Source: a virus. From it: 48,372 nt of DNA. Both the position numbers and the translations under genes were made by a program. Below are positions 124 through 43,778 of this stretch, one piece after another. The stretch's first letter is position 1. The number at the start of each line of letters is the position of its first letter. The notes beneath the pieces were generated by a model. It ran no database searches. It had not been told where the DNA came from and worked only from the letters and a program-made list of their open reading frames with translations. Location: IMG/VR virus record IMGVR_UViG_3300011432_000008, positions 1-48,372 of that record; one strand, 5' to 3'.

Positions 124-3100
124 TATCCAAAAGTAGGTTCGTGCATAGTATCAGGTACTTCATGAGATGCAGTTTTCTTGAAATGCACGGTATTTTCTGG
201 GTCAGCATAGCCAATACCAGAAGGCAGAGTCTTATCTACAACAGACTCCTTAATATCGTACATGTCATCTTCCCATTTTTTATTTAATCTATCTACATGT
301 TCTTGAGCTGCTGCCTTATCATCAAACTGCCTTGTTACTCTGTTATTCCATCTCTTATCAACTACGTTATAGCTGATTCCTCGATTCTCTTCTGGAATCT
401 TACTTATTCTTTTTTCTTCACGAAGTGCTTTTCCAGACCTAGCAGCTTTCTTAATAGCCTCTAGAGTCTTTTCTCCAACTTTTTTACCTACTCTACTACC
501 AGATACCTTATCAGCTATCTTTTCATAGAATGGCTGAATACTACCAAAGCCTCCACCTATAGTAGTTCCTTTTTCAGCTCCCCATTCTCGACCTAATTTA
601 CCTGTATAGCCAAATCTTTTACCGATATCAGGAATAGAGAGGACACTCTTAAGATGCCTTAACTGTCTTGTCAGATAAATAGCATTAGCATAGCTTTCTT
701 CATACCTAGCTATATCTGCTGCATTTCCTCTATGTCTAGCATCTTTTAAGAGATTATCAAGTTTACTTTCAGCTGCTCCTGCTGCATTGAGTTCAGCATC
801 TAATTGAGAGTAATCATAATCTTCAAGAGGTGTTCCTATTCCACTATCCTTCTTATACGCCTCTGTAAAGGTAGGCTTATCAGAAGTAGACTTAAATTCA
901 ACAGGCTTCTCAACAGAAATCTGAGATTCTCGTCCAGATACCTTAGACTCTCTTTCATCAATAGCAGCTAGGAATCTACCCTTCCAAGTCTCTCCTGCTT
1001 TTAATGGGTCATTTCTGAGAATAGGAGGCATAGCTGCTCTAAATTCAGAGTCAGCAGCGCCTTCTAAATCATCTACTATTTCAGCCCATCTTCTAGCAGT
1101 TGCATCCTTTAATTGTGGACCATACTTCTCATAGAGGTCTTGAAGTCCTCCAAGGCCACTACCTAAAGTGGTTCCTTTAGACTCAAGCTCCCTCATTTGC
1201 TTTTTAAGACCCTCAGCTTCTGCCATTAATAGTTTTCTAGTAGTAGCAGAAGTAGACTCTAATCTAGCTTTATTAACAACCTCATTAAATCTACCCATGA
1301 GAGCTGATAATCTAGCTTGATTTCTGGCCTTAGGAGCAACAGGAGCATCAGGCCTATTTCTTTCTCGATAGCTTTGTTCTTGTGCCTCAATAGTTTCTAA
1401 TACTTTACCTCTCCAAGTTTGACCCCTATCTAATCTAGCTTTACGACCATAGGATACAATATTCCTATAAGCAGAATCAGGAGAACCAGCTCTATCTTTC
1501 TGAGCAACTAATTCAGCTAAGGTTCTAGCTGTAATATCTTGGAAACTATCAGGAGAAGGTAAATGACCCCTACCCTTAGGCGGAGGAACATTGGCTTTTC
1601 TAGCAACAGTAGGAGGAGCAGGAACAGATGGTCTATCAACCATGCTCCTAGGCTCTACTGGGTATTCTTCTGCTAAAGCAGCCTTCTTCTCATCTGACCT
1701 TACTTTCCTATCAGCTAATCTTTCCTTGTATCGAGCAGCTCTTTGTTCAGGAGTTAAAAATGGCTCAAGTTGAGGAGCTACATGAGGAGTGCCTGTCTCA
1801 TTATCCATTACTTGATAACGAGCAGCTCCAGCACCTAGATTCTCATTGATTCCTCTTGCATATATACGTGCTTCTGCAAGAGAAGGTCTACCGGCTATCG
1901 GGCGGCCGGTTTCAACGTCGATAATATGAAATCGAGCTTTACTTAACTTATCAGCGAGTTTCTTTCCATATTCAGTCTCCCGAAGCTTCTCGTAGAAGTC
2001 TTGGAGATTAAACATTCCTACATTAGTGCCCTTCTTATTAGCTTCATCAGCAGCTTGGGCAGCATCAATTCTACCTTGAGCAGTAGTGGTACTAGCTCTT
2101 TCCTTCTTTTTAGCTTCTGCTGCTGCCTTTCTTTCTTCTTTTATTGCAGCTGCGGCCGCGTCTCTTTTAGCCTTATCAAGAATTCTAACCCTTTCAAGGT
2201 CTTTAAGTCCTCGTAATACTCCCTCATCACCTTCAATATGAGGCATTCTTGCAGCAGCTTTGGCTCTATCTACTGCTGAGATATTCTGAAGGATTGTTTC
2301 GTTTTCAGCAGCTTCTTTAATAGCCTTTTCAGACCTAGACATCTCCTCTTCTAGTATCTGCTTATCTAGTCTTTCAAGAATAGCAGTTCTAGCAGGAGAA
2401 TCAGGTTGAGCTGCAATCTTATCTCTTAATGCAGCAGCCTCAACTGCACTTCTTTGTCTAGGAGTAGCTTCAGTTGGAGGTGTAGGTCTATCTAATTGAG
2501 CAGTTGGTAAATCTGCTACAGGTCTTTCTACAAGTCCTTCTGGTAACGGCCAATTATCTCCAACAACAGTTCGTCCAGCTTGTTGACCAGATGCCCTACG
2601 GAATATAGGTCTACCTTCTTTATCAAGAGCAGGTCTTGCTGGAACAGGTTTATCAGGAGTTCCACCTCTTGCTAATGGTCTTTCAGGAGTAGGAATTGTT
2701 GTTGTTGGCGGAACTCCTCTTTCTGGAGGTAATATTCCTCCGGGTCCAGCTTCAAATACTCCGGGCCTTCTTCCTCTCGGAGTTAAATCAAATGGAGAAG
2801 GTCTCATTTCTCCGCTTAAAAAGTCTCCGGGACCAAATGGTAATTCTGGTTGAACTCCGGGCAATTCAGAGAAATTAATAGCCTGAGGAGGCTGCCAATT
2901 ACGCTTCCTAACAGATGCCTCCATCTTAGTATTAAGAATTTCAGCATCAAGACTGGCAACTTTATCCCACTGTCCAGCTCTTGCAGCTTCTGACTTCTGC
3001 ATCTCAAATTCGTGAATTCTAGCTTGAGATTCAGCATCAATTCCTGCGTGTGCCCTAGCCTTCTGTTCTGGAATAGTTCCAGCATCTAGTGGAGTTCCAG

Positions 3101-4106: not shown

Positions 4107-5363
4107 CTACCTAACAACCCAATTATCGATAGTTTTACCACCAGCAGCAGAAGGTTTATTACCTTCGTTTCCCATCCCACTCTTATACGTCTCTCCAAGT
4201 TTTGCTCTTAATTCTTCTTTAGCTTTTCTTACAGCAGGACTGTCTCCTGAGCCAAAATACTTTCCCGGCTCTTTATTAGGTTGAACAATAATACGATTAG
4301 TATTCTCATCTACATAATAAACCTTATCAGTATCATTATCGTCAATATCGTTAAGAGTGAGAATATCAGCTGCATCATTGTAAGCCTTTTGATTTACATC
4401 TCCGGGCTTTAGCTGCCTTGCTGCTGCTGCAAGTTTTCCGGCGGCCGTCTTAGCTCTAACATCAGCCCCATAATTCCTAGATTGGGCACCAATATTAGCA
4501 ATACTCTCATGGGATTTAGCAAGAGCAGCAGCAACATCTGCTTCTCTCTTAGTCTTTTCTTCACGAGATTCAGCAATCTTACCAAGCTCTTTACGTTCTC
4601 CTGTTACTGAATTCTCACCAATTCTCTTTCCAGTGGTTTCATCAGTATAGAAGTCCCATCCCTGAGCTTTGAGGGTATCTTCTCTATGCTTCTGATTGGC
4701 GTTGAATTCATCCTGCTTTTGCTTAAAGTCTCTTGTATCTCTTTCCTCACCACGCTCTAAATCAAAGCCTTTCAATCTCTGCTGAATATCTTCAGATTCC
4801 ATACCGGCTAAAGCTCCAACATTCTTGAGCTTATCTTGATATGTAGATTCGGCTTGATTGTATTTGTTATCTCGAATATCCCGTGCTACAGCTACACCTT
4901 TACCGGGGTCTCTAAATCCAGCAGAGAATCCACCTAAAGATGCAGCGATTCTATCAAATGCTCCGGGTTTGTAATCTTCACGTTTCGGAGCATTATTAAT
5001 CATATCCTCTAGAGCCTTCCTCTGAGGTCTATTCTGAATGATTTCATTGTATCTATCAAGAACTCCCGGTTTAGGAGCCACAGACGCAGTAGGCTCTCTA
5101 TAATCCGGCCCCGGCAGAGTATTAGCTATATCTCTAGCTTCGGGATTAAATGTCGGACGCGGATTAGCTCCACCCGGTTCAAATGGATTTTGCATTGGAT
5201 TCAGAGGCCCCTTTTGATTCATAAGGAGATTCTGACTCTGTAAAGGCATACCAGCAGGCTGAGCTTCAAAGGACGGAATAATAGGTTCACTAGCACCGCT
5301 AGTATATGGGTCATCTTCAAAGCCAAAAGTACGCTTAGGTGAAGGAGTGAATCTGGAATACAT
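4107..5363 (-). CDS. internal virion protein-like, 418 aa
   Basis: The start is set by GGAGG eight bases before the ATG at 5363 (MYSRFTPSPKRTF). The protein is Pro/Gly/Asn-rich for its first 130 residues, then has a long, highly charged helical/coiled-coil stretch rich in Lys, Glu, Gln and Ala (about 170-330). No enzymatic motif is visible. It sits between the Gly/Ala-rich 416-aa protein and the giant protein and is transcribed with them. This is the position and character of the three-protein ejection apparatus of podoviruses (T7 gp14-15-16 or P22 gp7-20-16). The role is inferred from position and composition only. Confidence 0.8.
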   Translation of the reverse strand: MYSRFTPSPKRTFGFEDDPYTSGASEPIIPSFEAQPAGMPLQSQNLLMNQKGPLNPMQNPFEPGGANPRPTFNPEARDIANTLPGPDYREPTASVAPKPGVLDRYNEIIQNRPQRKALEDMINNAPKREDYKPGAFDRIAASLGGFSAGFRDPGKGVAVARDIRDNKYNQAESTYQDKLKNVGALAGMESEDIQQRLKGFDLERGEERDTRDFKQKQDEFNANQKHREDTLKAQGWDFYTDETTGKRIGENSVTGERKELGKIAESREEKTKREADVAAALAKSHESIANIGAQSRNYGADVRAKTAAGKLAAAARQLKPGDVNQKAYNDAADILTLNDIDDNDTDKVYYVDENTNRIIVQPNKEPGKYFGSGDSPAVRKAKEELRAKLGETYKSGMGNEGNKPSAAGGKTIDNWVVR

Positions 5364-5365
5364 GA

Positions 5366-6616
5366 TTACCTCCACGCTCCCATATTACGTGCATAATTAG
5401 GATTATATCCAGCAGGCATTTGTGGGCCTTCCATTGGATTAAATCCACCTTGGAAATAATTTGCTTGTCCGCCTGTTGGAAGTGCCGTTGCAGCATTTCT
5501 ACCGGCAGAAGCAGCACCTGTTAAACCTTTCATTGCTCCACCAATAGCGCCCATTCCAGTCATTCCACCAGCAACTGCTCCAGTCATTCCAATGATATTT
5601 TCCATCATTCTAGAACGGTTAACTTCATCGTTCTGTAACTGGAGTCCTCTATTGGCCTGAGTAGACTTACTAGAATCTCCTACTGCACCCATCCAAGTCT
5701 TTTCAAAGTCAGATTGTGGAGCATATGTTGAACCATAAAGGTCCATCAAACCACCATATCCAGCAATCTGGCCTTTTTGTCTTAAGTCTTGGATGCTTCT
5801 TTCAGCATCAGCAGTAATGCCTCCGGCACCTAAGTTATATTGATTGTCTAAAGCTGCCTGTTCTAATGACTGACGACCTCTTTCAGTCTGAGTTCCCTCA
5901 AGACCTGTAATACCATATTTCTTACCTTCTCGCTGTGATTCAGCTAAGCCAATATTAGCTGCTAACTTATCTTGTGCAGAACCTTGTGCGGCACTTCTTG
6001 CCATTTTTAGGTCTAATCCTGCTCCAGCTCCAGCATTTGCACCCATTCTAGATGCAGCTAATCCTTGTTGCTCACGCAATGAATTGTAAAATGAAGGTGC
6101 AGAACGAGCAGCTTGTGCTCTAGTTCTTTGAATATCTCCAGCAGAATAACCACCTGTATCAGCAAAATCAGTATATCTCTTATCAACATCAGTAAAGTCA
6201 GAAAGATTAGCTGTAGCTTTGCTACCTAATGCTCCCTGATAACGAGCACGATAATCTTCAATTCCACCATCACCACCTAATCCACCAGTCTCCGCCATTC
6301 CTCGAAGACCTGAACGCATATAATCACGTTCTTCATCTCCTGATTTAATCAAGTCTTCATATCGAGAAGAATGAGTTAAACCACCTGCTGCATCTCTAGC
6401 TCCTGCTGTTCCTACAGGTTCTCCATCCATTCCGCCTCTTTTACCTAAAATAGAGCCAAAGGCTCCTTTTTTCGAGGCGGCCGTTCCGGGAACTACAGCA
6501 CTAGGAGTAGAGCTTCTTCCTAAGAATTGATTTAAGAAAGAGTCATACTCTCCTTGACTTCTTGCCTGTTCTCTTTCAGTAGCTTCACGCTCGTATTTCT
6601 GGTTGCCTTTAGCCAT
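5366..6616 (-). CDS. Gly/Ala-rich internal virion (ejection) protein, 416 aa
   Basis: The N-terminus is a charged helix (MAKGNQKYEREATEREQ). The body is Gly/Ala/Ser/Arg-rich, and there is a hydrophobic Gly-rich segment near residues 345-370 (MTGAVAGGMTGMGAIGGAM) that could insert in a membrane. Such a glycine-zipper hydrophobic region is typical of podovirus ejection proteins that form a channel during DNA entry. It overlaps the acetyltransferase stop by 8 bp and is followed 2 bp later by the next virion protein. The assignment rests on composition and location. Confidence 0.8.
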   Translation of the reverse strand: MAKGNQKYEREATEREQARSQGEYDSFLNQFLGRSSTPSAVVPGTAASKKGAFGSILGKRGGMDGEPVGTAGARDAAGGLTHSSRYEDLIKSGDEERDYMRSGLRGMAETGGLGGDGGIEDYRARYQGALGSKATANLSDFTDVDKRYTDFADTGGYSAGDIQRTRAQAARSAPSFYNSLREQQGLAASRMGANAGAGAGLDLKMARSAAQGSAQDKLAANIGLAESQREGKKYGITGLEGTQTERGRQSLEQAALDNQYNLGAGGITADAERSIQDLRQKGQIAGYGGLMDLYGSTYAPQSDFEKTWMGAVGDSSKSTQANRGLQLQNDEVNRSRMMENIIGMTGAVAGGMTGMGAIGGAMKGLTGAASAGRNAATALPTGGQANYFQGGFNPMEGPQMPAGYNPNYARNMGAWR

Positions 6617-22689: not shown

Positions 22690-23186
22690 CGGATGGCCTC
22701 TACTTCAATGGCATCGTAATCAGATTCATCTTTCTGCTTAGAGCCATGAATGTTAATTAGAATTTTAGGAGCGAATCCTTCTCCTTTACGTCCGTCCGGA
22801 GAGAATTCGCTAACTATCGCAGCCATATTACGGGCAATAGAGGAGGCTTCCTTTGCAGTTTCTTTATCTACTTTTCTATCAACTACTTCGAGGGAGGTCA
22901 TTAAAATGTCGAGGGCTTTAGTGGAGATTTCTTTCTTGATGGGCCGGGCGGCCGCATCTATATCAGAAGATAATTCTTGATTATTAACTATGTTACTTAT
23001 ATTAGCTTGACTCGTACCAAATGCTTTAGCAACATTTTGTTGCGAGTCTACTTGTGCAAGAGCTCCAGCTAGAACCTTCATCTCTCTTGGAAGCTCAGGT
23101 CTTTTTCCTAGACCTTCTCGCCTCTTCAATTCGAGGTTCGACTGTCCTGAGAGTCTAGCTTTAAGTTGTTCAGGTGAGATATACAT
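22686..23186 (-). CDS. putative terminase small subunit (HTH protein), 166 aa
   Basis: Contains a helix-turn-helix (NVAKAFGTSQANISNIV, about residues 53-69) followed by a helical oligomerisation region (ALDILMTSLEVVDRKVDKE). First gene of the packaging/structural operon. The frame is open to an ATG at 23237, but that codon lies between the -35 and -10 boxes of the operon promoter, so it cannot be in the transcript; the ATG at 23186 (MYISPEQL) is preferred, about 35 nt after the predicted transcription start and without an obvious ribosome site. A transcriptional regulator is the main alternative. Confidence 0.65.
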   Translation of the reverse strand: MYISPEQLKARLSGQSNLELKRREGLGKRPELPREMKVLAGALAQVDSQQNVAKAFGTSQANISNIVNNQELSSDIDAAARPIKKEISTKALDILMTSLEVVDRKVDKETAKEASSIARNMAAIVSEFSPDGRKGEGFAPKILINIHGSKQKDESDYDAIEVEAIR

Positions 23187-23227
23187 GTTATTAAGATAAA
23201 GTGTTAAAATTCCCTCACGCACGCGCG

Positions 23228-23256
23228 ATTGTCTCATACCTTTACTAGCTTGTCAA
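23228..23256 (-). promoter_or_regulatory. sigma70-like promoter of the structural operon
   Basis: In minus-strand sense TTGACA (23256-23251), a 17-base spacer, then GACAAT (23233-23228). It faces the terminase/structural block, and transcription would begin near 23221. Confidence 0.75.
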
Positions 23257-23780
23257 ATCGGCGAAATTACTCAGTAAATTCGCTATTTTTGGGCCACACG
23301 AAGTGAGGACAATTTAGGGACTGTTCTAAACCCTTTATTCAGTTTATTTTTGGATTAATAGTTCCTTTTGATTGTAGCTTAAAAGTATATATTTGTTCAT
23401 ATTTGTTAGTGCTTTCACGCATCCCCTCAGGAAGGTCAGATGAGACTCTCTGCGTCGGGTATATGGGGTATGATGCTCATGTTCAAGCAAGTAGTTGTTG
23501 CTTGAATGTGATGACAGACTAATCATTCTGATTACTGTGGTGTCCTACCACTCTGTTACTGTCATCATTTGGCTACCCTTAGCCTTTCTCTCACTACCGA
23601 TAGGTGTGTCGTGTCGTCCGGGGACTATTCCGGTTCCATTACACTCCTGAGAATTGAATACCTGAAACGCCAGAAGGTCACTACTTTTGGGTGTCTAAGA
23701 CCGGCCTACAATCCGGTAGCTACAGAAAAGTGAAACAGTAGCAGCGCCCACTTTATGAGAACCTAGCGTAGTAAGAAAAA
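23238..23780 (+). other. non-coding, densely folded leader region
   Basis: About 540 bases without a credible gene, between the divergent arms. Visible hairpins in plus sense: TTCAAGCAA/TTGCTTGAA (23482-23506), a three-way junction (23509-23567), ACCGG/CCGGT near 23700-23718 and GCTAC/GTAGC near 23718-23745. No good -35/-10 pair was found for the rightward early genes, though an AT-rich stretch lies at 23340-23400. Confidence 0.6.
23509..23567 (+). ncRNA. three-way-junction RNA element
   Basis: The outer stem TGATGACAG/CTGTCATCA (23509-23517 with 23559-23567) encloses hairpin AATCA-TTC-TGATT (23521-23533) and hairpin GTGGT-GTCCT-ACCAC (23537-23551). All three stems pair perfectly. It lies in the leader of the first rightward gene, next to another 9-bp hairpin at 23482-23506. 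Confidence 0.5.
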
Positions 23781-23810
23781 ACTGGCCGTCTTTCTTGACG
23801 CTTGTCTGTC
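23781..23810 (+). repeat. cassette A inverted repeat, 5' arm
   Basis: Thirty bases, ACTGGCCGTC ... GTCTGTC, that match the complement of 24336-24365 at 27 of 30 positions, with one more position a G-U wobble. The arm ends just before the AGGAGA ribosome site of the enclosed gene. Confidence 0.8.
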
Positions 23811-23832
23811 TCATTCAAATCAGGAGACAGAA

Positions 23833-24297
23833 ATGGCCGAAATACTGAAGACTCTCTCAGTGGTCTTGAACAAGTTCACGTTCAAGCGCAAGAAGACCGG
23901 CGGATTGTATGACGCAATGCAATTCGCTACTCCGGTTGCCAAAAAGACCCGCAAGGGCACTCTGGTAATCAAGCAGGACGTGTCGGAATATCTCAAGCTG
24001 ACGGAGCGTGAAATTGATGCGCTTCTCAAGAAGCATGAGATTGACACAAAGGTTGCGAAGATTTACGGTGCAAACCGTATCCTTCGTCAGCGTGCCGCTG
24101 GTTCTGGAATGGTGGACGATATCATTTCCAGACTGCACGAAAACAACGTGCAGATTCCCGGCGTCACAGACGGTGAAAAGATTGCATCAGGTTATCGTGC
24201 AATCGCCACCAGCATCCTCACCCTTTACCGTGACAAACAGCGTCTCGGAAAAAAGGATTGGACCATCGACAAGTGCTACTCGACTGTCGTCGACTAG
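23833..24297 (+). CDS. hypothetical early protein enclosed by inverted repeats (cassette A), 154 aa
   Basis: Not recognised. Basic at the N-terminus (FTFKRKKTGG), helical in the middle (YLKLTEREIDALLKKHEID). AGGAGA precedes the ATG by about 6 bases. The codons are richer in C/G third positions than neighbouring early genes (AAG, CTC, ATC, GAC), pointing to high expression or different ancestry. It is the first rightward gene, with a long folded leader and a 30-bp enclosing inverted repeat, so it is probably an abundant early product. Confidence 0.75.
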   Translation: MAEILKTLSVVLNKFTFKRKKTGGLYDAMQFATPVAKKTRKGTLVIKQDVSEYLKLTEREIDALLKKHEIDTKVAKIYGANRILRQRAAGSGMVDDIISRLHENNVQIPGVTDGEKIASGYRAIATSILTLYRDKQRLGKKDWTIDKCYSTVVD

Positions 24298-24304
24298 TAA
24301 CAAA

Positions 24305-24332
24305 TCGTGGTTATCAATACCGATAATCACGA
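24305..24332 (+). other. 11-bp hairpin after cassette A gene
   Basis: TCGTGGTTATC pairs with GATAATCACGA across the loop AATACC, one pair being G-U. It lies between the stop codon and the 3' arm of the enclosing repeat. No T-run follows, so it is not a classical terminator; 3'-end protection or RNase III processing are possible roles. Confidence 0.6.
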
Positions 24333-24335
24333 ATC

Positions 24336-24365
24336 GACAGACTAGCGTCAAGATGGACGGCCAGT
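24336..24365 (+). repeat. cassette A inverted repeat, 3' arm
   Basis: Pairs with 23781-23810. The next cassette's 5' arm begins two bases later. Confidence 0.8.
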
Positions 24366-24366
24366 A

Positions 24367-24391
24367 GAATTGAGTGATTAGTTAGTGGCCT
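24367..24391 (+). repeat. cassette B inverted repeat, 5' arm
   Basis: Twenty-five bases, GAATTGAGTGATTA ... GTGGCCT. Pairs with 24587-24611 at 23 of 25 positions plus one wobble. Confidence 0.8.
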
Positions 24392-24407
24392 AGAATAGCA
24401 GGTCATT

Positions 24408-24578
24408 ATGTTCACAGAAAACGTGCGTGTCTGGACTGTAGTATCAGCAGACCACAAACAAACTCACTCTATCTTCTTCTTTAGAGAAGATGCTGTTGCC
24501 TGTGCGAAAGAAATGGGCAACGGAACCTACGTTAACGACAGACTCGTTTGGCACAAATTCACTCCCGAAGTTAAGTAG
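24408..24578 (+). CDS. small protein enclosed by inverted repeats (cassette B), 56 aa
   Basis: MFTENVRVWTVVSADHK... reads as a compact alpha/beta mini-protein with aromatic-rich strands (SIFFFREDAVACAKEM, RLVWHKF). No known family. The ATG follows a weak AGG site. The whole gene lies inside a 25-bp inverted repeat, so its mRNA could close into a loop. Confidence 0.6.
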   Translation: MFTENVRVWTVVSADHKQTHSIFFFREDAVACAKEMGNGTYVNDRLVWHKFTPEVK

Positions 24579-24586
24579 CATCTTTC

Positions 24587-24611
24587 AGGCCACTTATTAA
24601 TCACTCAATTC
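24587..24611 (+). repeat. cassette B inverted repeat, 3' arm
   Basis: AGGCCACTTATTAATCACTC..., the partner of 24367-24391. The 5' arm of cassette C starts after one base. Confidence 0.8.
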
Positions 24612-24612
24612 A

Positions 24613-24636
24613 GATTGTGGGTTCTGTTAGTGGCCT
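24613..24636 (+). repeat. cassette C inverted repeat, 5' arm
   Basis: Twenty-four bases, GATTGTGGGTTCTG ... GTGGCCT. Pairs with 24867-24890 at 21 of 24 positions plus two wobbles. The inner TTAGTGGCCT is shared with cassette B; the outer half is different. Confidence 0.8.
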
Positions 24637-24653
24637 AGAAAGAATAGGTAACT

Positions 24654-24857
24654 ATGCTTATCTGGCGTCTAATCAGAACCATCGGTATCAACAGACAGCA
24701 TGAAACTGTTATTCTGTCTGGAATGTATGATACCTCTACTCCTGACGGAGATACAGAATACGAAAACTTCCGTCTAATAGCAGCGATGCTGAACGCTGTT
24801 CGTGCAAACAAATTCGAGAAAATCGAATTCGCTGTTTCTTCAGGTCACACTCTCTAA
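24654..24857 (+). CDS. small protein enclosed by inverted repeats (cassette C), 67 aa
   Basis: MLIWRLIRTIGINRQHETVI...: strand-turn-strand, then a helix (ENFRLIAAMLNAVRANK) and a last strand (KIEFAVSSG). Not recognised. A weak AGG ribosome site lies about 8 bases upstream. Enclosed by a 24-bp inverted repeat like its upstream neighbour, although the proteins are not obviously homologous. Confidence 0.65.
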   Translation: MLIWRLIRTIGINRQHETVILSGMYDTSTPDGDTEYENFRLIAAMLNAVRANKFEKIEFAVSSGHTL

Positions 24858-24866
24858 CTCTCTATC

Positions 24867-24890
24867 AGGCCACTTATAGAATCCACAATC
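24867..24890 (+). repeat. cassette C inverted repeat, 3' arm
   Basis: AGGCCACTTATAGAATCCAC..., the partner of 24613-24636. It shares AGGCCACTTAT with the 3' arm of cassette B. Confidence 0.8.
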
Positions 24891-24918
24891 GGCTTCGCCT
24901 AATAAAAGAGAGGTGTAG

Positions 24919-25092
24919 ATGTATCAGGGAATGAATGAGTATGAAATCCGCGCAATGATTTATTGGAGAGCGTGGGTTTCAATGGGACAAATGAAAGACT
25001 TGTTCTCATATCTCTTCTGGAGAGATGCGAATGAGTTTGGAAAACCATATGCACAACGGGTGCATTTGGGAATGAAAGTTAAGGACTCTTAG
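24919..25092 (+). CDS. small protein, 57 aa
   Basis: MYQGMNEYEIRAMIYWRAW..., aromatic and Met-rich, mostly helical; no match recognised. AGAGAGGTG precedes the ATG. Its stop codon lies in the loop of the following terminator hairpin, so this is the last gene of the first early transcript. Confidence 0.6.
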   Translation: MYQGMNEYEIRAMIYWRAWVSMGQMKDLFSYLFWRDANEFGKPYAQRVHLGMKVKDS

Positions 25093-25108
25093 TCCTTTTC
25101 TTTTTTTT
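25081..25108 (+). terminator. rho-independent terminator
   Basis: AAGGACT-CTT-AGTCCTT, a perfect 7-bp stem, followed by TTCTTTTTTTT. It overlaps the end of the 57-aa gene. Confidence 0.85.
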
Positions 25109-25179
25109 GTTTTTCTTATAGGTGTGTTTATTTGTAATCTGACTAAAAACACGTATAAGACGGACAAAACGTCTTAGAA

Positions 25180-25334
25180 AGGAGTGTTGTGAGATTAATC
25201 GGCAGGGCCGATATCACTATTTACCGAAAGGTAAACGGTGACTGGGTAGCTTCATTTGAGCATCATATCGCTACTTCTAATAGTAGACAAGATGCTTTTA
25301 ACTCACTAGTCGCTATCTTGAAATCTCACAACAC
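25180..25334 (+). repeat. 15-bp inverted repeat spanning a gene start
   Basis: AGTGTTGTGAGATT at the ribosome site/start codon of the next gene is the reverse complement of AATCTCACAACACT near 25320-25334, inside the same gene. Pairing would bury the GTG start in a long-range helix, so it could control translation. Confidence 0.6.
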
Positions 25335-25398
25335 TTGTTTCTTTAGTGTGAGACATTTCAAGTTTGGCTCTTCGCGCAATAGAAAGGAGCGTGAATGA
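25189..25398 (+). CDS. hypothetical protein, 69 aa
   Basis: A GTG start with AAAGGAG eight bases upstream. MRLIGRADITIYRKVNGDW...: beta strands and a helix (RQDAFNSLVAILKSH), ending basic (KFGSSRNRKERE). Not recognised. A TAAGACG/CGTCTTA hairpin lies just before it, and its start is inside an inverted repeat, suggesting regulated translation. Confidence 0.6.
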   Translation: MRLIGRADITIYRKVNGDWVASFEHHIATSNSRQDAFNSLVAILKSHNTCFFSVRHFKFGSSRNRKERE

Positions 25399-25580
25399 AG
25401 ATTCAGAAACCGTGGAATGATGTTCTCGTTCCTAATCTTAAGGAAGATGAAATGGACATTCTTCCTAAGTGGTTTCGTGATTGCGTTTCAAACAATCATG
25501 AGACTGAGTTCGTTGACAATGAAATCGGTTGTGCAACATGTAACCGATTCGAGACACTTAAAAGAAAGGAGGGTAATTAA
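25395..25580 (+). CDS. hypothetical protein with CxxC, 61 aa
   Basis: The ATGA-coupled start (AGAAAGGAG upstream) overlaps the previous stop. MKIQKPWNDVLVPNLKED..., with CATC near residue 48 and a single distal Cys, perhaps half a zinc site. Function unknown. Last gene before the presumed origin. Confidence 0.6.
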   Translation: MKIQKPWNDVLVPNLKEDEMDILPKWFRDCVSNNHETEFVDNEIGCATCNRFETLKRKEGN

Positions 25581-25633
25581 TCGGCTCATAATTAGCACTT
25601 AAGCAAACCAGACTATATTAGGACACCCGATTT

Positions 25634-25688
25634 TTATTTGTGCCTAATTTGTGTAAGGTTTGTGTTCTATTTGTGCTCAATTTGTGCC
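25634..25688 (+). repeat. iteron array 1: five 11-bp repeats
   Basis: Five contiguous 11-base units: TTATTTGTGCC, TAATTTGTGTA, AGGTTTGTGTT, CTATTTGTGCT, CAATTTGTGCC. The core is TTTGTG at exactly one helical turn. This is the layout of initiator-protein iterons. Array 2 carries the same core in the opposite orientation. Confidence 0.8.
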
Positions 25689-25708
25689 GTTTCTAAAGCA
25701 CACGAATC

Positions 25709-25746
25709 CCCGTAACTCGTTGAAAACAAAGGACTTACGGGTTTTT
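25709..25746 (+). terminator. stem-loop with T-run between the iteron arrays
   Basis: CCCGTAA pairs with TTACGGG over a 19-base loop, followed by TTTTT. It fits a terminator that keeps upstream transcription out of the AT-rich region. A related CCCGTAA...CCGTTGCAA sequence follows the promoter at 25906. Confidence 0.6.
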
Positions 25747-25862
25747 CACACTCTTACCCTCCCCCTCCCCTATCTATATATACTAATAATATATATATAT
25801 AAATAAAGAGAGGAAAAGAAAGTGAGAAAAAGGTGTTGTGGTGATACCCAATGAGGACAGTA

Positions 25863-25891
25863 TTGACAGTGACGGGGGGATAGGGTACAAT
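25863..25891 (+). promoter_or_regulatory. sigma70-like promoter in the origin region
   Basis: TTGACA (25863-25868), 17-base spacer, TACAAT (25886-25891). GGTGAT upstream and ATCACC downstream form a short inverted repeat around it. It would transcribe through array 2 into the 26117 gene. Confidence 0.85.
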
Positions 25892-25953
25892 AGCCCATCA
25901 CCCGTAAACCGTTGCAAACACTAGGGTTACACGATTTCGGGAGCTGAGAAAAA

Positions 25954-26008
25954 GGCACAAAAACAACGCAAAAACAGCACAAAGACTACATAAAAACGGC
26001 ATAAAGAT
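25954..26008 (+). repeat. iteron array 2: five 11-bp repeats, inverted
   Basis: GGCACAAAAAC, AACGCAAAAAC, AGCACAAAGAC, TACATAAAAAC, GGCATAAAGAT, contiguous at 11-base spacing. The complement GTTTTTGTGCC shares TTTGTGCC with array 1. Confidence 0.8.
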
Positions 26009-26116
26009 TTAGTGGTCTGCCGTTAAAAGTAGTTGAATTGAAGAATTAGTAATTGTTTTCGACTCTCATTAATAGTGAGAATCGAAATGAGTTACTAACT
26101 CAGAAAGGAGTAAAGC

Positions 26117-26398
26117 ATGATAAAGAAAGGCGCGTTCGTTGAATTCACTGATTTGTGGTATCAAAGTTATCCTCCTGCTAACGCGGCCGTAATCAAATAC
26201 GGCATTTGCATGGAAGATACCGAACGTGAACTTAATCGGCCCGTGAAAGTAATGCGTGGAGATAAGAGTATTGAATATGCTCATTTCATTCACGCTCATT
26301 CATGGGCAGGATGGTGTCCGCCAGAACTCGAAAAACTCTTTGAGGATGATTTCCCAGAGAATGACTACGATGATTGTGAAGATTACCCAATCGAGTAG
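26117..26398 (+). CDS. hypothetical acidic protein, 93 aa
   Basis: GAAAGGAG lies seven bases before the ATG. MIKKGAFVEFTDLWYQSYPP...; beta-rich N-terminal half, conserved-looking HAHSWAGWCPPEL, strongly acidic C-terminus (FEDDFPENDYDDCEDYPIE). Not recognised. A hairpin TTCGACTCTCA/TGAGAATCGAA at about 26059-26087 precedes it. Transcribed from the origin-region promoter. Confidence 0.65.
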   Translation: MIKKGAFVEFTDLWYQSYPPANAAVIKYGICMEDTERELNRPVKVMRGDKSIEYAHFIHAHSWAGWCPPELEKLFEDDFPENDYDDCEDYPIE

Positions 26399-26414
26399 TT
26401 AGTAGTTAGTTAGT

Positions 26415-26437
26415 TTCTAAAGAAAGGAGGTTTAGAA
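26415..26437 (+). promoter_or_regulatory. ribosome site displayed in a hairpin loop
   Basis: TTCTAAA pairs with TTTAGAA (7 bp), and the nine-base loop is exactly GAAAGGAGG, the Shine-Dalgarno sequence of the next gene. The last stem base is the A of the start ATG. The arrangement keeps the site single-stranded and exposed. Confidence 0.6.
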
Positions 26438-27021
26438 TGGTTAAGAAGCGAGTCGCTAAGATATTCAAGCTGAAAGATGAGTATGGATACATTAGTCCGT
26501 ATCAACTCGAAAAGAGAGCCAAGTCTAAACTTCCTACCTTTAGATTCAGGAATCGATTGCATGAACTGAGAGCAATCGAAGGAGTGTATGAAAATACACG
26601 ATATCCTGATTATCCAATTCACATTTCGTGTCTCTATAACGATATTCTTCGTGCTAGTGACACTCATCATTTCTATTCATGCTTTCACGCTGATAGAAGT
26701 GAGAATATCCAGCCCTTTCTACGGTGTGTTCATCCGGACTGGGCTGTAATCTTTGTTACCGACAAGTCTGGTAAATTCATGGGTAGAACTTGGTTAAGGT
26801 TCAATCGAAGAAGTCACGTTGATTGGACTAGTAAGACTGAGGAAGCCTTTGAAATCTTCAAGATGTATGGTAACAAATTGGAGGAACGTGATGTTAAGAC
26901 TCTACTTGAGTATTTAATTAAGTCACGCCTCAACGCTAACATAGTTGAGGATAATGGAACTGGCCGTCAAATTCGGATAAAAGGAGGATTATCCGACGAC
27001 TACTTATCATTCCTTGACTGA
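26437..27021 (+). CDS. hypothetical protein, 194 aa
   Basis: The largest gene near the origin; family not recognised. A basic N-terminus (MVKKRVAKIFKLKDEYG) is followed by an alpha/beta region with HHFYSCFHADRSENIQPFL and WAVIFVTDKSGKFMGRTWLRF, patterns of a compact enzyme-like core. The C-terminus is helical, then KGGLSDDYLSFLD. Position next to the iterons makes a replication-initiation role possible, but no helix-turn-helix or primase motif is visible. Confidence 0.65.
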   Translation: MVKKRVAKIFKLKDEYGYISPYQLEKRAKSKLPTFRFRNRLHELRAIEGVYENTRYPDYPIHISCLYNDILRASDTHHFYSCFHADRSENIQPFLRCVHPDWAVIFVTDKSGKFMGRTWLRFNRRSHVDWTSKTEEAFEIFKMYGNKLEERDVKTLLEYLIKSRLNANIVEDNGTGRQIRIKGGLSDDYLSFLD

Positions 27022-41288: not shown

Positions 41289-43778
41289 GTGGATTACTGC
41301 CCCGGAACAGGGAATCTCCGTTCAAAAATCATGTTGATTGGCGATTGGGCCGGTCAATCTGAGATTAATCAAAAAGAATCTCTAGTAGGTGCTACTGGAG
41401 AGATTCTAGATAGAGTTTTCTCTGAAATAGGACAACCAGATTATCGTACTGAATTCTATTTCAGTAATGTCTACAAATATCATCCCGGTAATATCTACGG
41501 AGCATTAGATAAGAATGTATTAGCAGACTCTACCCGTAAGCTCTGGGCAGAGATACAAGAGGTAAATCCAAATGTAATAGTTACGTTAGGAGAACTTCCC
41601 CTAAACGTAGTATGCGGTGTAAAAAAGGTAATGACCTATCGTGGTACGGTATTACCTAACGATAAATTTGGCTATCTTCCTAAAGTAATTCCTACCATAC
41701 ATCCTTTGCATCTGGCAATGCCTACTAAGGCAAGCGGAGATTACTTCGAGACAAAGAAGCTATACAATGGAATATGGAGAACTATCCTTCAATTAGATTT
41801 AGCTAAAGCACTAGAAGAAGCCAAGACTAGAGAGTTCCATCCACCTGACAGATTACTAAGAGTTGCAACTAGTTCGTTAGATGTAATTAGGTTCTTTAGA
41901 GAAAACAAAGGAAGGACACCGTATGCTGACGTGGAAACTTATAGGAGTACTCTTTGTAGCTGTCTTGGCATTAGTTTTGATAAATACGAAGGACTCTCAA
42001 TCCCCCTCTTCCAAAAAGTAGGAGATATAAAGCTATGCGGAATACCACACTCAGACCTCGCAAGAATATGGCAAGAAATACAAGAGCTATTCAATCGAGT
42101 AAAGATAGCCGGCCAAAACCTGAAGTTCGACCAAGCAAAATTGGAACTATTAGGTTTCCGAATGGCAGTACTTTCAGATGTTATGTTGAAGGCACACACA
42201 GTCAATTCAGAGCTGCCTGCCTTCAGTCTAAGTTTTTTGTCATCCATCTGGACAAAGGAACCATACTACAAAGACGAGGGAAAGGAATTCAATCCAGCGA
42301 AACACGACATACGGCGATTATTTTTATATAACGCTAAAGACTGCGTTGTAACTGCCGAGATTGACGAAGCTCTTGAGCTTGAATTGAGGGAGCTTAGTGA
42401 TGAATACCATACTGATTTAGTAGGGTTCTATTACAACTATGTAGTTCCTCAGCATCAATTCTATTTTGACCTTGAAAAGGTCGGATTCAATATAGATGAT
42501 GGAATGAGGAATTATCTAGTTATGAAGTATGAGACTTGGAGAGATATTCTTCAAGTAAAGTTAGACACGGCCGCCCAGCGCAATATAAACATTAATTCTC
42601 CTAAGCAAGTAAACGAGTTTCTCTACGGAACCCTTAGATTACCTCCTTCTTACAATAAAAAGGGAAAGCTAAAGGGTGATGAGGATGCTATTGCCCAATT
42701 ATTAAAGAATCGAGTTCGTAATGAGTCAAAAAGAGAAATCCTCAACTCTATCCTCGAATTTAGAAGAGTTAGTAAAACCCTTTCTACCTACTTGCTTTGT
42801 AAAAGAGATTACGACGGAAGGATACGTAGTCAATATCGAATTATTGGTACGGAGACAGGACGTTCCAGCACTTCTATCCTTAGTGAACCAGTCAGGCCAG
42901 AAGACATTGGTCTTGCGTTTCAAACAATTACAAAACACGGAGACATTGGAAATGACGTCCGCTCTTATCTTGTCCCCAGACCCGGATACGATTTAGTTAA
43001 CGTAGATTTAGGTCAAGCAGAAGCGAGGGTAGTCTGTGTCCTCTGTAAAGATTGGGTCTTATTGGACGCTTTTGATTCGATTGACATTCATCGCAGGACT
43101 GCTTGGCTTGCTTTGGTATCTGGCATTCTTGACTTAAGTAAGGGAAAGCATGAATCTGATGCTTTAGGTAAGGATTCAGCAGAGCGATTTATAGGTAAAA
43201 AGACTCGTCACGCTGGAAACTATAACATGAAATGGCGAGAGTTTATGTCTAACGTCATTTCTGATTGTAGAAGGTTCGGAATAGATTTCACAATATCAAG
43301 GTTCCTAGCTGAAAAGATATTAGAGCGATTCCATGCAGCTTCACCTAAGATTAGGGAAGTATTCCATGCTGAAATTAAGGACGCTATTGATACGAGTCGC
43401 GCTCTGGTTACTCCGTATGGCCGTCTCAGGAGATTTTACGATAGGGCTTCAGATAGATTGTATGGAGAAGCATTTGCTGACATACCGCAAGATACTGTTA
43501 AGCAAAGACTTACTAGAGCTGGATTTAAGATTAAGCAAGAGGCGCCCTCCGTATTATTCTGTGGGGAAGCTCATGATTCTCTTACGATGCAAATACCGCG
43601 TGGAGAAGTAGTTGGGATTTGTAGGGAAGTAATAAGGCCCGCTCTAATGGAGCCTATTGACTTCAATAACTGCACGTTGAAACGGGACTTCAAGTTAGTT
43701 ATTCCATGTGATTTTGAGCATGGAGATAACTATAAAGATTTGGTCAAATTGGATGTCATGGATAAATCTGCTGCATGA
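41289..43778 (+). CDS. polA: family A DNA polymerase with UDG-like N-terminus, 829 aa
   Basis: GTG start. Residues 1-165 resemble a family 4/5 uracil-DNA glycosylase (SLVGATGEILDRVF, FYFSNVYKYHPGN, VIVTLGELPL, IPTIHPLHLA), but the first motif reads GDWAGQSE. A DnaQ-type 3'-5' exonuclease follows: ADVET (about 213), NLKFDQ (about 277), YNAKDC (about 345). The polymerase has motif A VDLGQAEAR (about 571), motif B KKTRHAGNYNMKWREF (about 638) and motif C AHDSL (about 760). No 5' nuclease domain. It is the replicative polymerase. The fused glycosylase-like domain could detect uracil or serve as a clamp-like part. Confidence 0.9.
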   Translation: MDYCPGTGNLRSKIMLIGDWAGQSEINQKESLVGATGEILDRVFSEIGQPDYRTEFYFSNVYKYHPGNIYGALDKNVLADSTRKLWAEIQEVNPNVIVTLGELPLNVVCGVKKVMTYRGTVLPNDKFGYLPKVIPTIHPLHLAMPTKASGDYFETKKLYNGIWRTILQLDLAKALEEAKTREFHPPDRLLRVATSSLDVIRFFRENKGRTPYADVETYRSTLCSCLGISFDKYEGLSIPLFQKVGDIKLCGIPHSDLARIWQEIQELFNRVKIAGQNLKFDQAKLELLGFRMAVLSDVMLKAHTVNSELPAFSLSFLSSIWTKEPYYKDEGKEFNPAKHDIRRLFLYNAKDCVVTAEIDEALELELRELSDEYHTDLVGFYYNYVVPQHQFYFDLEKVGFNIDDGMRNYLVMKYETWRDILQVKLDTAAQRNININSPKQVNEFLYGTLRLPPSYNKKGKLKGDEDAIAQLLKNRVRNESKREILNSILEFRRVSKTLSTYLLCKRDYDGRIRSQYRIIGTETGRSSTSILSEPVRPEDIGLAFQTITKHGDIGNDVRSYLVPRPGYDLVNVDLGQAEARVVCVLCKDWVLLDAFDSIDIHRRTAWLALVSGILDLSKGKHESDALGKDSAERFIGKKTRHAGNYNMKWREFMSNVISDCRRFGIDFTISRFLAEKILERFHAASPKIREVFHAEIKDAIDTSRALVTPYGRLRRFYDRASDRLYGEAFADIPQDTVKQRLTRAGFKIKQEAPSVLFCGEAHDSLTMQIPRGEVVGICREVIRPALMEPIDFNNCTLKRDFKLVIPCDFEHGDNYKDLVKLDVMDKSAA

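Follow-up and report, generated by a model that had tools for sequence, protein, structure and literature searches.

Three neighbouring small genes of this phage are each enclosed by a long RNA helix kept by compensatory mutations, the layout bacteria use to bracket ribosomal RNA. The same layout recurs in many unrelated phages, which suggests that phages borrowed the rRNA maturation scheme for their messenger RNAs. The genes lie in a 48,372-nt stretch of viral DNA (IMG/VR record IMGVR_UViG_3300011432_000008), which is referred to here as the window. A first-pass annotation of the sequence had noted three abutting inverted repeats around complete genes and proposed selection on RNA pairing, so that each mRNA could close into a loop. 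Both the observation and this central claim were supported. The roles that it listed (RNase III processing, protection of the ends, a cassette-type mobile unit) are not settled, and its statement that no described system has this design needs qualification, as the layout is that of an rRNA operon, with leader-trailer helices and, in most relatives, a canonical or near-canonical boxA, which it did not see.

Inverted repeats A (30 nt, 90%) and B (25 nt, 92%) were returned by a repeat finder. One base (24366, 24612) separates neighbouring repeats and each loop holds one complete ORF with its start and stop codons. Coordinates are collected below.

Features of the enclosed genes and of their surroundings (window coordinates; distances are from 5′ arm to start codon and from stop codon to 3′ arm)
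Feature	Coordinates	Strand	Remarks
Leader hairpin	23478-23510		loop AAGTAGTTGTT
boxA-like element	23645-23660	+	TCCTGAGAATTGAATA, degenerate
Cassette A	23781-24365	+	27/30 Watson-Crick pairs
Cassette A, 5′ arm	23781-23816	+	core 23781-23810
Gene A	23833-24297	+	154 aa, unknown function; 22 and 38 nt
Cassette A, 3′ arm	24331-24365	+	core 24336-24365
Cassette B	24367-24611	+	23/25 Watson-Crick pairs
Cassette B, 5′ arm	24367-24395	+	core 24367-24391; contains GTTAGTGGCC
Gene B	24408-24578	+	56 aa; 16 and 8 nt
Cassette B, 3′ arm	24584-24611	+	core 24587-24611
Cassette C	24613-24890	+	21 Watson-Crick pairs of 24, plus 2 G.U
Cassette C, 5′ arm	24613-24643	+	core 24613-24636; contains GTTAGTGGCC
Gene C	24654-24857	+	67 aa; 17 and 9 nt
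Cassette C, 3′ arm	24861-24890	+	core 24867-24890
Gene D	24919-25092	+	57 aa, not enclosed by a helix
Intrinsic-terminator-like hairpin with T run	25081-25104	+	at the end of gene D, likely end of the operon
21-nt inverted repeat	25176-25196 and 25322-25342		covers the ribosome site and start of the gene at 25189
Long imperfect hairpin	25637-26005		TTTGTGC-type repeats and their complements, with a CCCGTAA/TTACGGG element
Uracil-DNA glycosylase domain fused in front of a family A DNA polymerase	41289-43778

Scored with G.U allowed, A, B and C (64, 54 and 53) were the three best + strand helices in the whole window. Four whole-window shuffles had maxima of 42.5-50.5 and 30 shuffles of the local 5.2-kb region reached at most 52. 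RNA folding of 24360-24900 gave z = -7.9 and contained both the B and C stems, and the MFE structure of 23770-24900 contained all three stems (28, 27 and 28 pairs). B and C share the core GTTAGTGGCCT/AGGCCACTTAT but have different outer halves. The shared core also contains an unpaired U.U that is invariant, together with its neighbours, in the four B/C-type stems compared, which suggests a recognised site.

Gene A matched no Pfam or PHROG family, gave only a low-confidence predicted fold (pLDDT 65) and had no relative in phage genomes or in the genome collection searched. Genes A-C have no known function. A search of 22900-26500 against Rfam gave no rRNA match and no other relevant match. The terminase and polymerase place the phage far from any cultured phage (<60% identity), so the host is unknown.

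IMG/VR was found to hold about a dozen contigs of the same phage group (contigs and loci are given here by L numbers). L006 is nearly identical to the window, but gene B is replaced by an unrelated 50-aa gene between unchanged arms, with 30 identical bases on one side and 38 on the other. In L006 the 3′ arm of the 21-nt inverted repeat downstream of gene D changes while pairing is largely kept. L009 (gene A 75% identical) has two cassettes with other arm sequences. L014 and L015 (gene A 38%) have three consecutive cassettes with 35/39, 33/34 and 33/35 pairs and unrelated B and C genes. L017 has one cassette (29/30) and L020 one (18/18) around a divergent gene. L038 (terminase 52% identical) has two abutting cassettes, and L177 has two abutting cassettes, the second with the same GTTAGTGG core. 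Homologues of gene A are enclosed in L009, L017 and L014. The long imperfect hairpin is conserved in position in relatives (L014 13115-13486, L017 5798-6178 in gene-A orientation) and is possibly an origin or regulatory site. L014 has a leader hairpin of different stem sequence with the same loop motif as the window, so the leader may hold another conserved RNA element.

Selection on RNA pairing is indicated by the way the arms change. Four B/C-type stems were aligned column by column. 96% of cells paired, 11 of 25 pairs had changed on both sides, none of 500 shuffles did as well, and sliding one strand dropped pairing to 31-44%. With a scoring that treats G.U and A.C alike, the + strand showed G.U:A.C = 16:1 in the window group (p = 3e-4) and 11:2 in other loci. 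Stem sequences are not independent because of shared ancestry and the p-values are optimistic, but the direction is the one expected for RNA of the transcribed strand, not for a DNA palindrome.

The closest known design is the rRNA operon. The leaders of L009, L017, L020 and L038 carry GTTCTTTGANAAYTGAATA or close to it just before or at the first arm, and L177 carries the A variant; this sequence appears to be the boxA of Bacillota-type rRNA operons. In the window the boxA-like element was the only match, on both strands, to CTTTGANAAYT or TGAGAAYTNAATA, and L014 has CTGAGAACTAAATA in the same place. The window and L014 keep only a degenerate boxA (CTGAGAAYTRAATA) 110-120 nt upstream of stem A (about 120 nt in the window), which is the weak point for the window itself. 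As a yardstick, two rRNA operons were examined. In Peribacillus (L158) and Paenibacillus (L159) boxA lies inside the 5′ strand of the helix that brackets 16S, with 31/33 and 30/31 pairs. Published work describes the 25-40 bp covarying leader-trailer helix of pre-16S, with boxC and the RNase III site in it, and the model in which boxA stays anchored at RNA polymerase while the RNA loops out until the trailer pairs (PMC10250234). The resemblance of GTTAGTGGGC to rRNA boxC (UCUGUGUGGG, PMC10250234) was too weak to claim. In L177 and L009 the boxA tail itself forms an outer helix (14-15 and 12 bp) around both cassettes; no outer helix enclosing the whole operon was found in the window, L014 or L038.

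The association was then measured across IMG/VR. Among 71 distinct boxA sites, 15 were followed within 45 nt by the 5′ arm of a strong helix (score 42 or more) with its partner 120-1400 nt on, versus 11 of 852 random sites in the same loci. With a second boxA variant and the same criteria, 8 of 41 sites versus 5 of 492 were followed by such a helix (p = 6e-7). About 80% of boxA sites in the scans have no strong helix by these criteria. Many loops are 88-96% filled by a single sense ORF, for example in L177, L219, L179, L107, L070, L054, L101 and L065. A few are non-coding: in L207 (boxA at 6303-6321, − strand) and L234 (3228-3246, − strand) boxA lies inside helices of 37 pairs that enclose 259-nt and 618-nt stretches without a good ORF or Rfam match, and these are candidate unknown phage non-coding RNAs. 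Few of the loci share DNA, and the number of lineages is estimated at about 20.

Named Streptococcus phages Javan326, MissE1 and Javan252 have boxA plus a 15-18 bp closing helix and are candidate test systems. LN34-type phages and Tn916 have boxA but no enclosing helix within the DNA examined; in Tn916 (L164, Streptococcus IPP61) the rRNA-type boxA lies at 3001-3021, between regulatory genes and xis. No boxA was found in Leuconostoc phages 1-A4 and LN04, or in a Paraclostridium phage-plasmid relative of locus L079. In L183 (9940-9958) and L169 (3001-3019) boxA lies inside or just before phage tRNA arrays, which suggests that phages also use boxA for tRNA operons. In L213 two type-II hammerhead ribozymes (5149-5216 and 5523-5595; Rfam, above gathering score) lie about 370 nt apart on the same strand downstream of a boxA cassette.

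The preferred reading, held at a probability of roughly 0.6, is that the early operon of this phage is laid out like an rRNA operon, with a leader carrying a boxA(-like) element followed by protein genes, each bracketed by a leader-trailer helix of 24-35 bp where an rRNA operon has 16S and 23S. In the proposed working, host NusB/S10 and the other Nus factors bind boxA and hold the leader near the RNA exit channel, the gene loops out as it is transcribed, and the 3′ arm pairs with the waiting 5′ arm when it emerges. Consecutive helices abut, so each gene becomes its own closed domain with the ribosome site and stop codon inside the loop. The arms lie just outside the translated part, so closure and translation could coexist. 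Host RNase III then probably cuts the helices, as in pre-rRNA, releasing single-gene mRNAs. The terminator-like hairpin suggests that A-D form one transcript. While the helices, their position around genes, the selection for pairing, the recurrence with boxA and the exchange of a loop gene are evident from sequence, Nus binding, co-transcriptional closure, RNase III cleavage and the benefit (processivity, uniform or stable monocistronic mRNAs) are inferred without transcript data.

A less likely possibility is that the helices act only as mRNA insulators or stabilisers, closing the 5′ and 3′ ends of each gene against exonucleases and separating translation units, without RNase III cutting and without a functional boxA in this phage. 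The well-supported pairing, arms that ribosomes need not open and the degenerate boxA of the window would fit this. However, near-perfect duplexes of more than 20 bp are typically RNase III substrates, and most relatives and many unrelated phages pair the helix with boxA as in rRNA operons. It is doubtful that the repeats are DNA-level gene cassettes, with RNA pairing incidental. The gene exchange in L006 is consistent with cassettes, as is the 23-26 bp boxA-containing stem shared by related contigs L039, L070 and L107 around different genes, a second example of exchange inside a fixed stem. Against this, the A, B and C arms differ from each other, compensatory changes retain pairing, the G.U excess is strand-specific, the repeats are always oriented with transcription and often joined to boxA, and no recombinase was seen nearby. 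Exchange is explained by homologous recombination in shared arms.

A regulatory switch, in which pairing of the arms controls termination, attenuation or translation of the next gene, is also unlikely. The arms of neighbours abut, and in L014 the base of the A 5′ arm can also pair 11 bp with a site beyond C, so alternative pairings exist, but they are weak or unique to one relative. The SD and start codons lie in the loop and not in the arms, and no terminator-like site was found inside A-C. B and C may descend from one duplication, as they share a core, but chance or tandem duplication of a repeat with no function is refuted by the covariation and recurrence in divergent phages, and the scores exceed those of whole-window shuffles.

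Compared with rRNA operons, the covarying helix that brackets the product and the consecutive bracketed units are shared, and most relatives also have a canonical or near-canonical boxA next to the first helix, but the bracketed RNA is a protein gene and not rRNA, the units are several, short and abutting, they are phage-encoded, and the window boxA is degenerate. The arrangement is therefore not a member of that family by its defining feature, although it may work like it. Lambdoid nut sites (boxA-boxB, N antitermination) also place boxA in a phage early leader, but nut has no enclosing helix and the boxA here appears to be of the Bacillota rRNA type; no boxB or N-like gene was identified here, although neither was specifically tested for. 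T7 early-region RNase III sites are duplexes between early genes that could likewise yield single-gene mRNAs, but are local hairpins, while here partner arms lie on opposite sides of each gene, 195-525 nt apart. The hok-type mRNAs appear to share long-range pairing of the two ends of one small mRNA, but seem to differ as a short regulatory fold-back of a toxin mRNA with antisense control, without boxA or tandem units. Integron gene cassettes are also small exchangeable genes with imperfect inverted repeats, but attC folds on itself 3′ of the gene, while here each 3′ arm pairs across its gene, the core GTTAGTGG does not fit GTTRRRY and no integrase was seen. Literature searches for mRNAs with leader-trailer helices, or for phage boxA with processing stems, returned only rRNA and Nus papers or nothing relevant among openly accessible papers. 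The parts are known from rRNA operons; the arrangement around protein genes is considered new in kind, with the caution that its function is inferred.

A broader reading, about as likely as not, is that many phages of Bacillota and of unknown hosts independently use the host's rRNA maturation scheme, a boxA-bound Nus complex plus leader-trailer helix plus RNase III, to produce individually closed and excised mRNAs, and that in the phage family of the window this has grown into tandem arrays of exchangeable gene loops. The layout would then offer a way to insulate genes in synthetic operons and give a sequence signature for finding such operons. It would give a simple genetic system to test what boxA-anchored leader-trailer closure does apart from ribosome assembly, a question that work on E. 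coli pre-16S left open (PMC10250234). If true, a maturation scheme thought to serve rRNA also serves messenger RNA, in phages of many lineages, and phage dependence on host Nus factors and RNase III is predicted.
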